This document shows positions 23,949 through 30,636 of a stretch of 64,000 nucleotides of DNA, piece by piece. The notes below the pieces were generated by a model, which was not told the DNA's origin, ran no database searches, and saw nothing but the letters and a program-made list of their open reading frames with translations. Origin of the DNA: Burkholderia pyrrocinia (lineage in GTDB: Bacteria > Pseudomonadota > Gammaproteobacteria > Burkholderiales > Burkholderiaceae); NCBI RefSeq assembly GCF_018417535.1, contig NZ_CP070977.1, positions 1,922,001-1,986,000 on the forward strand. Direction: 5' to 3'. A program made the translations under genes and the position numbers. Each line of letters opens with the position of its first letter. Positions within the stretch are counted from its first letter, which is position 1.

Positions 23949-26522
23949 ATGGCCACCCTGTTCACGCTCAAGCGAACCGCCCGCTACACGCTGCTCGCGT
24001 TCGCCGCGCTTGCGGCACTGCCCCCCGCATTCGCGCAATCGGCCGATGCCCGGCCGTATGCGGCCGCGGCACGGCAACCGGGTGGCGATCCGCCGAGCCG
24101 CGTCGCGCGGCTCAATTACCTGTCCGGCGCCGTGACGACCGAACCGGCCGGCACTGATACCTGGTCGTATGCCGCCGTAAACCGGCCGCTGACGACCGGC
24201 GACCAGCTCTGGAACGATGCCGGCGCGCGCTCGGAACTGCACATCGGCTCGACCGCGGTGCGGCTCGGCAATTCGACGAGCCTGTCGGTGCTGAACCTCG
24301 ACGACACGACGACGCAACTGAAGGTCGGCCTCGGCACCGTATCGACGCACGTGCGCGAGCTGCCGGCCGGCGGGGCGTACGAAATCGACACGCCGAACCT
24401 CGCGCTCGGCATCACGAGCCCCGGCGACTATCGCGTCGATGTCGCGCCGAACGGCGCGAGCACGACGGTAACGGTGCGCAGCGGCAGCGCGACCGTCTAC
24501 GGCAGCAACGGGCAGTATCCGCTGTCGCCCGGACAGCAGGTCGTGTTCACGGGCACCGACCTGCAGGTTGCGCAGCAATCGCCGGCGCCTGGGCCCGATG
24601 CGCTCGACCAGTGGGCTGCCAGCCGCGACGCGGCCGAGGAGCGCTCGGTATCGGCCCGCTACGTGTCTCGCGACGTTCCCGGCTACCAGGATCTCGACGC
24701 GAACGGCACGTGGCGCGAAACCCCGAATTACGGCGCGGTATGGGTGCCGAACGACACGCCGGCCGACTGGGCGCCGTATCACGACGGCCACTGGATCTGG
24801 CAGGCGCCGTGGGGCTGGACATGGGTCGACGATGCACCGTGGGGCTTCGCGCCGTATCACTACGGTCGCTGGGCGTACGTGGACGATAGCTGGGCATGGG
24901 TGCCCGGCCCGATGGTCGTCAGCGAGCCGCCCGTCTATGCGCCGGCGCTCGTCGCGTTCGTCGGTGGCGGCGGCGGTCCCGACTGGAGCGTCGCGCTTAC
25001 CGTCGGCGGCGTCGCCGCGGCCGGCTGCGCATGGTTCGCGCTCGGCCCGGGCGAATCGTGGCACCCGGGCTGGGGCGGCTGGAGCCCGCACTACTACGAC
25101 CGCGTGAACCGCAACATCGTGGTGAACAACGTCAACGTGAACGTGAACAAGACCGTGAACGTGACGAACATCACCAATATCACCAACATCAACAAGACGT
25201 ACGTGAACTTCCACGCGCCGCACGCGATCACGGCCGTGCCGGCCTCCGCGTTCGTGCACGGCCAGCCTGTTGCGCACTTCTCGCAGCACGTCGATCCGCA
25301 GCAGTGGCGCAACGCGCACGTGACACCGGGTACGCCCGGCATTGCGCCGGTGCGCCAGAGCTTTACCGGCGGGTTGCGCAATGCCGACTACCGTCCGCCG
25401 GCGGCCATCGCGCAGCACCCGTACGTCGCGACGCGCAATCCTGCGGTGCCGGCCGCGTATCGCGACCAGGCCGCCGCCCACCTCGCGCAGCAAGGCGGGC
25501 GCGTACCGGGCGCCGGCGCCCCCGTCGTGAAGACGAACGTGCCGGCCGACTACACGGCTCGCCCGGTTCGCGTTCCAGGCAACCCGAACGGCGGCGCATG
25601 GGCCATGCACAACGTACAGCTCGTGAATCCGCACGGCCCCGTCGTGCAGCCGACACGCGCGCCGCGCGAAGGCCAGCCGCCCGCCGTGCAGGCCGGACGG
25701 ACGGGTGCACCGGTGCCAGTGCCGGTGCCGGGCGCGCCCAATATCGCGCGGCCGGCGAACGGCGAGAACCCCAATGCGCCGCGCTTCGCCAACGGCGGCA
25801 TGCCGCAGGCACCGGGTAACCCGGCACCGCATCAGGCATTCGGGCCCGGAAACGGCGTCCCGCATCCGCCGGTGGCCGGCAATTTCCCGTCGGCCATCGG
25901 CAACACGCACGCAGCCGAGGCGCCGTCGCCTGCATGGATGCAGCCGCACACGCCGATGGAGCGCCAGCGCCCCACCCCGCCGACCGCGCTCCACGCGGCA
26001 GGACAGAATGCGCTGCCGCCCGTGCGCAGCGCGGTGCCGGTGCCGCATCCTGACGGCGCGCCGGCGCCGCAGGGCGCGCATCCCGACGGCCGGAACGAAG
26101 CGCCGCGTGCGCTGCCGCAACCGCGGATCGACACGACAGCGCAGATCCCGCAGCCACGTCCGCGCCCGGAATTGCCGACGCCGGCCCAGCATGCGCAGCC
26201 GCAGCCGCAACCGGAACGGGCCGCCCCCGCGCCGCAACCGCGCCCCGAATTCGCGCAACCGGCACCGCACCGCGAAGTCGCGCCGCCGCGCGTGAACGAG
26301 TACCACCCGCCGGCCCCCGCCGTGCACGAAATGCCGCGCCCGCAACCGCAGGCGCCGCGCGTGGAACCACGGCCGTCGATGCCCGCGCCGCACATGGAGC
26401 CGCGACCGTCGATGCCCGCACCCCGGATGGAACCGCGGCCGCAACCGGCGCCGCACGTCGAAGCACCGCGCCCGAGCAACCCGCCGCCGCAAGGCGGTCA
26501 CGATGAGCGGCACCGCCAGTAA
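23949..26522 (+). CDS. Large secreted FecR/DUF6600-type protein with Asn-rich and Pro-rich regions
   Basis: 857 residues. Signal peptide at residues 1-30 (ALPPAFAQS). Residues about 50-200 form a FecR-like domain (RLNYLSGAVTTEPAG, WNDAGARSELHIG, LGNSTSLSVLNL). Residues about 250-325 hold Trp/Tyr-rich tandem units typical of DUF6600 proteins (WAPYHDGHWIWQAPWGWTWV, PWGFAPYHYGRWAYVDDSW). A Val/Asn repeat (NVNVNVNKTVNVTNITNITN) at about 390-415 is followed by a Pro/Gln/Ala-rich tail of about 400 residues with a tandem repeat. No TonB or sigma-factor gene adjoins, so it is not a classical FecR regulator. Role in the envelope or surface is inferred. Confidence 0.85.
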   Translation: MATLFTLKRTARYTLLAFAALAALPPAFAQSADARPYAAAARQPGGDPPSRVARLNYLSGAVTTEPAGTDTWSYAAVNRPLTTGDQLWNDAGARSELHIGSTAVRLGNSTSLSVLNLDDTTTQLKVGLGTVSTHVRELPAGGAYEIDTPNLALGITSPGDYRVDVAPNGASTTVTVRSGSATVYGSNGQYPLSPGQQVVFTGTDLQVAQQSPAPGPDALDQWAASRDAAEERSVSARYVSRDVPGYQDLDANGTWRETPNYGAVWVPNDTPADWAPYHDGHWIWQAPWGWTWVDDAPWGFAPYHYGRWAYVDDSWAWVPGPMVVSEPPVYAPALVAFVGGGGGPDWSVALTVGGVAAAGCAWFALGPGESWHPGWGGWSPHYYDRVNRNIVVNNVNVNVNKTVNVTNITNITNINKTYVNFHAPHAITAVPASAFVHGQPVAHFSQHVDPQQWRNAHVTPGTPGIAPVRQSFTGGLRNADYRPPAAIAQHPYVATRNPAVPAAYRDQAAAHLAQQGGRVPGAGAPVVKTNVPADYTARPVRVPGNPNGGAWAMHNVQLVNPHGPVVQPTRAPREGQPPAVQAGRTGAPVPVPVPGAPNIARPANGENPNAPRFANGGMPQAPGNPAPHQAFGPGNGVPHPPVAGNFPSAIGNTHAAEAPSPAWMQPHTPMERQRPTPPTALHAAGQNALPPVRSAVPVPHPDGAPAPQGAHPDGRNEAPRALPQPRIDTTAQIPQPRPRPELPTPAQHAQPQPQPERAAPAPQPRPEFAQPAPHREVAPPRVNEYHPPAPAVHEMPRPQPQAPRVEPRPSMPAPHMEPRPSMPAPRMEPRPQPAPHVEAPRPSNPPPQGGHDERHRQ
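26363..26461 (+). repeat. 33-base tandem repeat in the secreted protein's tail
   Basis: Two full 33-base units encoding EPRPSMPAPHM and EPRPSMPAPRM (26363-26395, 26396-26428) and a diverged third (EPRPQPAPHVE). In frame with the Pro-rich tail. Confidence 0.75.
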
Positions 26523-27637: not shown

Positions 27638-29035
27638 TTAGCAAGCGTGCTGCGGAAGCTCCGGCAACGGCGCCGAAAACCCTGCCAGCGTATCGCCGCG
27701 GTCGCGCATTCCGTGCGCACACATCAGCCGGTAAAGCGTGACGCGCGACACGCCGAGTTCGCGTGCGGCGTCCGCAAAACGGCCGCGATGGCGCAGCAGC
27801 GCCTGCTCGATCGCCTGCCGTTCGGCCGCTTCCCGCGCCTCCAGCAGCGACACGGGCGCGAGGGTCGCGAAGGCGTGCAGCTCGAGATCGGCCGCGGTGA
27901 TCATCCTGCCTTCCGACATCACGATCGCACGGCGCACGCGATTGATCAGCTCACGCACGTTGCCCGGCCACGAATAGCCGTACAGCGAGGCCACCGCATC
28001 AGGGGAAAAGCCGCGCAGGCGGCGATGCGCATCGCCCTTGAAACGCTCGAGCATGTGGCGCGCGAGCACCTCGATGTCCTTGCCGCGCGCACGCAGCGGC
28101 GGCTCTTCGATCTTCAGCACGCACAGGCGATGGAACAGGTCTTCGCGGAACCGTCCTTCGCGCAACGCCGTTTCCATGTCCACATGCGTCGCGCAGATCA
28201 CGCGCACATCGACCGGCACCGACACGTGCGCACCGAGCCGTTCGATCTTGCCTTCCTGCAGGAAGCGCAACAGGCTCGCCTGGCTTTCGAGCGGCAGGTC
28301 GCCGATCTCGTCGAGAAACAGCGTGCCGCTGTTGGCGGCCTCGACGCGGCCGATCTTGCGCTGGTTCGCGCCAGTGAATGCGCCGCGCTCGTAGCCGAAC
28401 AACTCGGCCTGCAGCAACGTCGACGGGATCGCCCCGCAATTGATCGCGATGAACGGCGCCTGCGCGCGCGACGAGCGCTCGTGAATCGCGACCGCCGTCA
28501 GTTCCTTGCCCGTACCCGATTCGCCGGAGATGAACACCGGTGCATCGGTCGCCGCGACGCGACGGATTGTCCTGAAGAGTCCGAGCATCGCATCGCAGGT
28601 ACCGACCATCTCGCCTTCGCTGCGCCCCGCACCGGCGGGCGGCACAACAGGTTCGGTCAGCGCGACCATGCCATGCGCATGACCGACGGTCTCGACGATC
28701 CGCGACGTCTCGTACGGCATCGTCACGTAGTCGAAGCAATAATCGCGAATGAGATGGCGCAACGTGGCGTCCTGCAACTGGCCGCGCCGCGTCGCGGCGA
28801 TCCAGCCGATGTGCTGGATGCTCAGGCAGGATTCGAGTTCGCGCAGGTCCGAGGGCTTGAAGCCCGGCGAGAAATCGAGCAGACCGGCCGTTGCAACGCC
28901 GTGCTGCACGACGCGCCGTACGTCGCGTACGGTCTCCGCGAGATCGACACGCCAACCGCATTCGTCGAAATGGCCGCGCAACGCGTCGTTCGGTTCGCGC
29001 GAATAATAGATCACGTGCCGCTGATCGGCTCCCAT
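27638..29035 (-). CDS. Sigma-54-dependent enhancer-binding regulator (VpsR/FleQ-like)
   Basis: About 465 residues. The N-terminal domain (residues about 1-125, with [15 protein letters not shown] and [17 protein letters not shown]) resembles the degenerate receiver of VpsR-type regulators and lacks a clear phosphoacceptor pocket. The AAA+ domain has Walker A GESGTGKE, the sigma-54 contact loop GAFTGA, Walker [12 protein letters not shown] and the R-finger region FREDLFHRL. The C-terminus is a Fis-type helix-turn-helix ([19 protein letters not shown]). The Met at 29035 has GGGGTGGG upstream and is preferred; Met at 29059 is possible. VpsR-like regulators often answer to cyclic di-GMP and control exopolysaccharide; that is inference here. 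It is divergent from a sigma-54 promoter. Confidence 0.9.
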
Positions 29036-29072
29036 ATGCCCACCCCGTTCATCAACCATCTAACGATTGCCG

Positions 29073-29092: not shown

Positions 29093-29399
29093 AAAGGATC
29101 GAATCGGGTCAGCCAATGGTGGCTCGATTCGCCATGCCGATGCGCGGCAACGACAAAGCCTCGCATGATGGCGCTTATCTCGCGTCCGTTTTTTTGATCA
29201 AGACAGCTTAGTTATAGGCACTGAATACGACAAATCGATTTCAGCGCCAGTGGCGATGCGGCCGAATCGCTCAGGAAGTCGACGCACGTCAATCATCTGC
29301 ACATAGCACTTGCGCAGCGAAGTGTTCTTTCATCGGCACACGCGCAGATTTTCATCCTTGAAGCGTATCGATTGAATCCGCAGTATTCCCGAGCCCCCT

Positions 29400-29417
29400 T
29401 GTTTCAGGCCTGAAACA
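29400..29417. promoter_or_regulatory. 18-bp palindrome, candidate enhancer (UAS) for the sigma-54 activator
   Basis: TGTTTCAGGCCTGAAACA is a perfect palindrome, followed at 29419-29426 by a second half site TTTCAGGC. Its centre lies about 108 bases upstream of the predicted transcription start near 29517, the usual distance for an enhancer-binding protein site. Confidence 0.6.
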
Positions 29418-29490
29418 TTTTCAGGCGTTTCCCACCACAATTCTCAACGCTTGCGCGTGAATCGCAGTCGTGACAACGGTCCCGGCGCGA

Positions 29491-29506
29491 TGGCATGCAT
29501 TTCGCT
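29491..29506 (+). promoter_or_regulatory. Sigma-54 (RpoN) promoter
   Basis: TGGCATGCATTTCGCT matches the sigma-54 consensus TGGCACGNNNNTTGCW at all but two defined positions, with the invariant GG and GC dinucleotides 10 bases apart. Start of transcription expected near 29517, 19 bases before the ATG at 29536. Confidence 0.7.
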
Positions 29507-29535
29507 GAATACGGAAAACATCGGAGACAGCGACC

Positions 29536-29862
29536 ATGCGAAAAAATCTTTTACTTGCTTTCGCGCCGGTAGCGATTGCGCTCGCGGCCGCCGGCCCGCC
29601 CGTGCCGGCGCACGCGGGTAAAACCGTGAAGCTGGATCGCGCGATGCTGCTTGCCGAAAATGCGCCAAGCATACAGCCCGGCAACGGGTTCAGCATCGTG
29701 ACCGTGTCGGCACCGCAACCGCTGCCCGCAGGCAAGACTTCGGTGACGCTGTGGGACGAGATCCCGCCACCGCCCCAACTGCCGACGCCGCTCCCGGTAC
29801 CACTGCCAGGCGACGTGCAGCACGCGATGGAGAGAAACGCGCAAGGCACCACGCGCCAGTGA
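29536..29862 (+). CDS. Small secreted protein under a sigma-54 promoter
   Basis: 108 residues. Signal peptide (MRKNLLLAFAPVAIALAAAG, cleavage probably after VPAHA). The mature part of about 80 residues contains KTVKLDRAMLLAENAPSI, a strand-rich middle (GFSIVTVSAP, GKTSVTLWDEI) and a Pro-rich run (PPPPQLPTPLPVPLPG). No cysteines. GGAG at 29523-29526 precedes the ATG. Flanked by a sigma-54 promoter and its own terminator, so it is a one-gene unit. Function unknown; surface or biofilm matrix role is only a guess from the neighbouring regulator. Confidence 0.8.
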   Translation: MRKNLLLAFAPVAIALAAAGPPVPAHAGKTVKLDRAMLLAENAPSIQPGNGFSIVTVSAPQPLPAGKTSVTLWDEIPPPPQLPTPLPVPLPGDVQHAMERNAQGTTRQ

Positions 29863-29964
29863 GCATGCGTCGATCCATTCGATTAGTATTCCGTATTGAT
29901 TGAATTGGCCGGACAGCATCGATCGGGACCACCATCACCGCCCCCCGCAACACGAGACGGTTTT

Positions 29965-29996
29965 GTGCCCCGTCCCCCGGCGGGCACTCTTTTTAT
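29965..29996 (+). terminator. Terminator of the small secreted protein gene
   Basis: GTGCCC/GGGCAC stem with an 11-base GC-rich loop, followed by tcTTTTTatt, about 100 bases after the stop. Confidence 0.6.
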
Positions 29997-30135: not shown

Positions 30136-30636
30136 ATGACGACGTTGACCCTGATCGTCGCGCGCGCCCGCAACGGCATCATCGGCCGCGACAACCAGTT
30201 GCCCTGGAAACTTCCCGAGGACCTCGCGTTCTTCAAGCGCACGACGATGGGCGCGCCGATCGTGATGGGCCGCAAGACCCATGAGTCGATCGGCCGGCCG
30301 CTGCCGGGCCGCCGCAATATCGTCGTCACGCGCGACGCAGCGCGCCGCTTCGATGGCTGCGACACGGTCACGTCGCTCGCCGACGCGCTGGCCCTCGCGG
30401 CGCGCGACGGGGTGCCCGAGGCATTCCTGATCGGCGGTGCGCAACTCTACGCGGAAGGCCTCCTGCTCGCGGACAAACTGGTCGTCACCGAGATCGATGC
30501 CGACTTCGACGGCGACGCATCGTTTCCGGCACCCGACGCCGCGCACTGGCAGGAAGTCTCGCGCGATGCGCACCAGGCGGCCGCACCGAACACATTCGGC
30601 TATGCGTTCGTCGTCTACGAACGCAAGCGCGGCTGA
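30136..30636 (+). CDS. folA: Dihydrofolate reductase FolA
   Basis: Reduces dihydrofolate to tetrahydrofolate with NADPH; target of trimethoprim. 166 residues with the family N-terminus [31 protein letters not shown] (catalytic Asp/Glu in LPEDL), [16 protein letters not shown] and IGGAQLY. Start ATG at 30136 fits family length; a -10-like TAGAAT is at 30095-30100. The protein pairs with ThyA. Confidence 0.96.

Follow-up and report, generated by a model that had tools for sequence, protein, structure and literature searches.

A gene for an exported protein behind a sigma-54-type promoter in Burkholderia, probably the remnant of a Fap amyloid locus

The window analyzed here is the whole 64 kb stretch of DNA (G000:C1:1922001-1986000, where C1 is the contig of the window's genome, G000). 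The original prediction described within it a self-contained module in which a palindrome, a sigma-54 promoter, a GGAG, a small open reading frame and a terminator lie beside a divergent activator, and all of these parts are present, arranged as follows.

27638..29059, minus strand: divergent sigma-54 activator (bEBP) with a VpsR domain (PF20161, PF00158, PF02954); in relatives the small gene and thyA adjoin it.
29349..29364, no strand: degenerate second box TTTTCATCCTTGAAGC, which has 2 mismatches and precedes the main box by 52 bases.
29400..29417, no strand: main palindrome TGTTTCAGGCCTGAAACA, with the conserved core GTTTCA-N4-TGAAAC at 29401-29416.
29418..29424, plus strand: extra half-site-like TTTTCAG, read from the sequence.
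29491..29506, plus strand: sigma-54-type -24/-12 element TGGCATGCATTTCGCT, 74 bases past the box core.
29523..29526, plus strand: GGAG, ribosome-binding, read from the sequence.
29536..29862, plus strand: open reading frame for an exported protein of 108 residues, of the LWDE family by profile membership.
29650..29685, plus strand: residues 39-50 of this protein (LAENAPSIQPGN), aligned to LD[DE]xxLxxQRG[GR] of fap-linked family members.
29740..29775, plus strand: residues 69-80 (SVTLWDEIPPPP), the conserved core of the protein in two family alignments.
29969..29993, plus strand: terminator-like hairpin with a T run (stem 29969-29984, then CACTCTTTTT).
30136..30636, plus strand: folA (dihydrofolate reductase), named by eye from the sequence.

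The palindrome TGTTTCAGGCCTGAAACA is the sole site in the 64 kb with up to three mismatches, against 0.00 in shuffled sequences. The promoter carries the GG-N10-GC core of sigma-54 elements; TGGCATGCATTTCGCT alone would not impress, with 0.56 matches at up to three mismatches in shuffles, and the strong evidence for the switch comes instead from conservation. The proposed 18-bp palindrome is present and perfect in the window, but the conserved unit is the 16-mer at 29401-29416, because the first T of the 18-mer occurs only in the window and in L075. Directly 3' of the box, ATTT[TC] is common among matches in the genus Burkholderia. Terminator-like sites number three in the scanned region against a shuffle mean of 1.3. 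Between the regulator start and the enhancer, at 29169-29196 on the plus strand, lies a conserved GGCGCTTATCTCGCGTC hairpin followed by seven T, which could mark the end of an antisense or leader transcript; a second sigma-54 site considered at 29169 was rejected, as it occupies the same position as this hairpin. A candidate sigma-54 promoter reading toward the divergent regulator, at a gap of 80, was not accepted because the window reads TCGC there and not TGG.

Comparison of orthologous intergenic regions, one of the checks by which the original prediction could have failed, bears it out: beside a VpsR-type activator, a gene for an exported protein is preceded by a sigma-54-type promoter and, at a fixed distance, an enhancer-like box. 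A box without mismatch in its 12 fixed bases, together with TGG-N10-GC, was found in 38 of 46 named loci (L039-L082, L104 and L114; gaps of 72-76, 85 and 86 allowed; upstream ATG used in L042, L043, L046, L048, L053-L056, L058, L059, L066 and L069), with a gap from box to promoter of 74 bases in 25 loci and 75 in 13. The eight loci without the box have regulators at most 66% identical to that of the window, which is itself up to 98% identical to those of B. metallica, B. aenigmatica and similar species, marking the window's genome as a Burkholderia near the cepacia complex. In a set of 26 fap-less sequences with a 74-base gap, to which the window belongs (L059, with gap 75, was left out), the 12 box bases are 100% identical; identity averages 98% in the promoter and is 84% in the spacer, and the 60 bases preceding the box, within which the second box TTTTCATCCTTGAAGC sits, reach 93%. 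Box and promoter also precede the LWDE gene in all 20 further loci fetched around it (gaps 60-99 scanned), the gap being 75 in 18 of them and 74 and 76 in one each; four carry a single mismatch in the box.

Ten fap loci that are more distant also offer a candidate promoter. Their best-matching boxes, searched over gaps of 40-139, lie at the following gaps, with mismatches in brackets: L200 74 (0), L201 75 (1), L205 75 (1), L202 85 (2), L203 85 (2), L197 66 (2), L191 64 (3), L195 53 (3), L192 133 (3) and L204 132 (4). L205 comes from the same genome as L171 and repeats it, and matches with three mismatches carry little weight. Excepting L192 and L204, which are weak, these gaps fall near 53, 64-66, 74-76 and 85, values separated by roughly one turn of the helix. 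Looping enhancers often tolerate changed spacing, so the fixed phase of box and promoter is an oddity.

The small protein had been taken for an orphan of no recognized family. Homology searches uphold this in so far as no Pfam or NCBIfam family fits it, nor any Pfam family six relatives tried; a profile, on the other hand, places it in a family of at least 571 members that normally opens a Fap amyloid operon. We name this family LWDE, after its core VTLWDE, and define it by that core following a signal-peptide-like start; the window protein has both, with residues 1-27 as the start (judged by eye). A single-sequence search with the window protein gave 64 relatives, of which those with an organism name are all Burkholderia. 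The profile, built from nine members, has at least 571 matches among 8000 candidates scored and matches 176 of 398 Burkholderiaceae genomes, including 57 of 61 of the genus Burkholderia. Residues V70-E75, P78 and P79 are invariant in both family alignments. A motif of the LD[DE]xxLxxQRG[GR] type lies between start and core in 118 of 118 listed proteins beyond the first 64 and in none of the first 64, a list that favors motif-bearing members because seven of the nine seed rows had the motif. Several g11 genomes have two profile matches each, and a second LWDE-like gene (IDDITLAAARGT, VKLWDE) lies on the far side of a fap operon at L171:5097-5546. Among the titles and opening lines of abstracts in the open-access literature we recognized no description of the LWDE gene, the fixed spacing or the FapD motif.

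Gene order bears on the origin of the module. Elsewhere in Burkholderiaceae the LWDE gene normally stands at the head of Fap functional-amyloid operons, ahead of fapA, and a C39 peptidase is present in 15 of 20 loci fetched around LWDE members. In fap-bearing loci thyA is followed by a divergent activator of the VpsR type, then by the box with its sigma-54 promoter, the LWDE gene and fapABCDEF; most have a second VpsR-type activator after these. L178, a Trinickia terrae contig, has thyA, the divergent regulator, box and promoter, LWDE gene, FapA and FapB-F, with NCBIfam scores of 81 bits for FapB, 61 for FapC, 209 for FapD, 33 for FapE and 361 for FapF, all below the curated cut-offs; its second VpsR-type regulator follows fapF and runs off the stretch. 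(L070 and L178, like L073 and L179, are the same contigs taken twice.) Three fap loci from distant families have an LWDE-like gene as well, found by profile in L192 (7e-6) and L204 (3e-6) and by eye in L191. Identification of the LWDE protein as FapA was rejected: FapA is a separate neighboring gene in all 15 fap-bearing loci of the 20-locus set, and FapA models match no LWDE protein tried (those of L191, L192, P0086 and P0112; the window protein also has no NCBIfam match). The FapA-like neighbors in L196, L200 and L201 match NF058617 below its cut-off, and that in L192 does not match it.

At the window locus fapABCDEF is missing, and folA occupies the place that the fap genes hold in fap-bearing relatives. 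With gene starts taken 20-39 bases past the promoter (as also in the dN/dS analysis), folA is the next gene, without fapB or fapC within 3 kb, in 26 named loci, and fapB and fapC come next in nine; folA was seen, by eye, to follow the second regulator in L185 only. Among the 61 genus genomes examined, nine have an operon-type FapF, always on the contig of the LWDE gene and 4-5 kb away from it, 48 have the LWDE gene without an operon-type FapF, and seven, that of the window included, have only a divergent FapF. The loss thus concerns this locus and not all Fap, since the window's genome has a divergent fap-like operon elsewhere. That cluster (C2:1859-1865 kb, L137:2560-7640) holds a FapF-like protein (C2:1859 kb), a C39 peptidase and two proteins with MSPDQLDEHRGG and LSDARLDAMRGG, and lies behind a box at gap 86 whose promoter, at C2:1864621, has a weaker score of 8 and is a candidate only. 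Another reduced form is seen at the thyA locus of L072 (L072:1-2900), where the box promoter precedes a FapC-like gene (388 residues as called) and then folA, with no LWDE gene; the same genome has an operon-type FapF at another place. According to one survey, fap genes are missing from the B. cepacia complex (PMC3792158), and another paper lists B. cepacia among species with Fap (PMC6173800); the LWDE family, as opener of fap operons, is kept in this complex. At 23949-26522 in the window, two genes from thyA, an exported-looking proline-rich protein of 857 residues with an asparagine/valine-rich stretch (VNNVNVNVNKTVNVTNITNITNI) is encoded, a type that also adjoins thyA in L178 and L179.

LWDE proteins beside fap carry LD[DE]xxLxxQRG[GR] or close variants, resembling the site of C39 peptidases, and FapE has a similar motif. 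The canonical double-glycine leader motif has spaced leucines before G and is cut by C39 peptidases. A loose motif scan also matched FapB and FapC often and was replaced by a strict pattern, with FapB, FapC, FapD and FapF as contrasts; this pattern is found in LWDE 17/23, FapE 21/30, FapA 9/23, FapB 1/30, FapC 0/30, FapD 0/30 and FapF 2/30 (0.000 to 0.007 in shuffled proteins), a description and not an independent test, since it was set after the LWDE and FapE sequences had been seen. The motif is present in 17 of 18 LWDE proteins of loci with fapD, the exception being a near-miss in the distant fap locus L204, which reads LDDRALAGIRAR and not RG. It is absent from the window protein, whose aligned residues 39-50 read LAENAPSIQPGN. 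Across 58 Burkholderiaceae pairs of regulator and LWDE gene it occurs in 24 of 24 rows with fap and 0 of 34 without; the 24 are 22 distinct rows because of the two contigs taken twice. Fap status was assigned by fapB/fapC versus folA as next gene in named loci and by fapD in the others, except that L064 and L076 were assigned by absence of an operon-type FapF from the genome; L072, with its fapC remnant, was left out. On the regulator tree fap and motif both change five times, which amounts to about five losses, L064 and others standing at weak forks, and all four contrasts that fall on well-supported branches are in agreement (p = 0.125). G205 has an operon copy of LWDE with the motif and an orphan copy without it, and the motif therefore follows the operon and not the mere presence of FapD in the cell.

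This distribution suggests that FapD recognizes the LD[DE]xxLxxQRG[GR] motif of LWDE proteins. Two reports describe the substrate of the C39 peptidase FapD as undetermined, and FapE as the sole Fap protein of P. sp. UK4 with a missing N-terminus in mass spectrometry (PMC5557850, PMC6173800). We put at slightly below an even chance the fuller proposal in which the LWDE motif and the SDxELxxxRG[KR]-type block of FapE are both FapD sites and LWDE is an overlooked seventh Fap component, freed from FapD in fap-less lineages and kept there as an exported factor in its own right, controlled by a VpsR-type enhancer in fixed helical phase.

Taken together, the family, gene order, spacing and motif distribution established from the sequences are best explained by reading the module as what is left of a Fap locus that retained its VpsR/sigma-54 switch and lost its FapD-type site, a reading to which we give a probability of about 80%. 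What had been called self-contained would thus be what remains at a locus without fap. From the ancestral gene order that we infer for the fap locus, the stretch between the LWDE gene and folA would have been deleted in the lineage of the window. The VpsR-type bEBP, probably once c-di-GMP is bound, would bind GTTTCA-N4-TGAAAC and, held in fixed helical phase, remodel sigma-54 polymerase 74-76 bases further on, so that the exported LWDE protein is made. In the intact operon this protein probably bears the site for the periplasmic C39 peptidase FapD; the orphaned protein appears to have lost the site and kept the VTLWDE core, which suggests that part of its role outlived Fap.

The divergent gene encodes a VpsR-domain bEBP, as had been proposed, with a VpsR domain (PF20161, 76.1 bits) and an AAA+ domain (PF00158, 227.6 bits) both above cut-off, a Fis-type helix-turn-helix (PF02954) and GAFTGA in the alignment, and it is the positional orthologue of the first regulator (reg1) of fap-bearing loci. 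Activators of this kind are known to act at a distance and remodel sigma-54 polymerase. In NCBIfam the regulator matches TIGR02915 best, at 390.4 bits against a cut-off of 502.6, and membership of the PEP-CTERM/PrsR group was rejected. Four VpsR-type paralogues, 57-59% identical to this regulator and with similar helix-turn-helix ends, are present in the window's genome; one, 59% identical and near polysaccharide-type genes, is probably BerB. BerB of B. cenocepacia is reported to bind c-di-GMP and the berA promoter region, with DNA binding unchanged by c-di-GMP in that assay (PMC5552954, PMC9684580), and BrfA, the bEBP beside fap in P. fluorescens, is reported to sense c-di-GMP (PMC9207406, PMC13101488). 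By analogy with BrfA and BerB, and from the paralogy, c-di-GMP is a plausible signal for switching on the window promoter.

The same box recurs in the window's genome at 20 places with up to one mismatch, against 0 for a backward control. When up to three mismatches are allowed, the composite pattern of box and promoter matches 12 times at gap 74 (control 0), 8 times at gap 75 (control 4) and 5 times at gap 80, which is out of phase (control 1); with up to two mismatches there are 7, 2 and 1 at these gaps. Across 61 genus genomes the gap-74 pattern with up to one mismatch has 105 matches against 1 in the control, spread over 49 genomes, of which 34 hold at least two, and many of the matches are the LWDE promoter itself. 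Sites in the window's genome include the following.

C1:3332 kb: SCPU, PapD-type chaperone and usher genes.
C3:1279 kb: a 188-residue protein with no Pfam match.
C1:1800 kb (two mismatches): a LuxR-type response regulator.
C1:3860 and C2:1205 kb: open reading frames behind the box.

The theme of the genes behind these sites is surface and matrix. At C1:1627.7-1628.2 kb (L132:7700-8200) two divergent box-promoter units, both of gap 74, face genes for a glycosyltransferase and an NfrA_C protein in one direction and, in the other, genes for a small protein of 101 residues and a DUF2334 protein. A gap-74 box with three composite mismatches lies just downstream of a VpsR-type paralogue and before a small open reading frame at C2:1286 kb (L142:7600-8111), possibly a second unit of regulator and small gene. 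A palindrome at gap 86 before a prpB-like gene was set aside, as it is presumably PrpR's own site.

The activator need not be dedicated to the small gene, given six other sites with up to one mismatch at gap 74 or 75 and the four paralogues. A similar helix-turn-helix in these paralogues, and the occurrence of one box and spacing before many genes, would fit a promoter worked by another of them, such as the probable BerB, or by several, rather than mainly by the neighbor; we consider this unlikely, though worth weighing, since the neighbor is accompanied by the box in 38 of the 46 named loci and in all 20 further ones, and no box was found before the probable berA, where the 0.8 kb upstream hold no sigma-54-like site scoring 8 or more.

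Rates of evolution bear on whether the gene and its promoter are instead a decaying relic, slowly eroding after fap loss and without present function. The median dN/dS of 27 fap-less LWDE sequences is 0.52 over 351 pairs (range 0.19-1.25), the motif is lost in 34 of 34 fap-less rows and the gene is missing from four of 61 genus genomes, all as expected of a relic. Against this, dN/dS is 0.22 for residues 67-82, the core, which is intact in 33 of 33 fap-less rows; the nine fap-linked sequences evolve no slower (median 0.60); the box is invariant in 26 sequences; and the gene is kept in 57 of 61 genomes. We therefore regard decay as improbable, and the low dN/dS and integrity of the core, with the invariant box, favor a retained function for the orphan LWDE protein; that it serves as a periplasmic or secreted helper for another matrix system is a guess at about even odds. 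The view suggested by the original prediction, that the protein is a new, dedicated surface factor unrelated to any known system, fits the anatomy and the lack of a Pfam or NCBIfam family, but is contradicted as to origin by LWDE membership and the fap context, and is very improbable.

If the locus is a Fap remnant, repeated loss of the amyloid operon provides a natural experiment on its first gene, in which the C39-type motif leaves with the operon and the switch and VTLWDE core do not. The question of the FapD substrate becomes testable with short peptides, and a box in phase with a sigma-54 promoter offers a sequence rule for finding polysaccharide, pilus and amyloid genes.

Several known systems resemble parts of this arrangement. 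Double-glycine leader peptides are alike in the shape of the motif, with leucines spaced ahead of G, and in having a C39 peptidase encoded in the operon, whereas the LWDE motif follows a signal-peptide-like start and its peptidase is separate (FapD) and not in an ABC transporter. The report on the PEP-CTERM box and PrsR (PMC1569441) describes an enhancer motif, spacer and sigma-54 element before genes for exported proteins, as here, but its spacer is 62.8 (s.d. 10.6) against 74-76, and the window protein is without a PEP-CTERM tail. BerB and the bep polysaccharide genes of B. cenocepacia (PMC5552954, PMC9684580) have in common an RpoN-dependent bEBP in the same genus; BerB acts on berA, and no matching box precedes the probable berA here. 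The fap operon of P. fluorescens PF07 is described as having an RpoN -24/-12 promoter and the adjacent bEBP BrfA (PMC9207406, PMC13101488). It shares the sigma-54-type promoter at its head, the neighboring bEBP and, with relatives of the window locus, the Fap genes; the window locus differs in being without fap, in having LWDE and not fapA as its first gene, and in the position of its regulator, which is divergent and upstream, whereas brfA lies downstream of fap.
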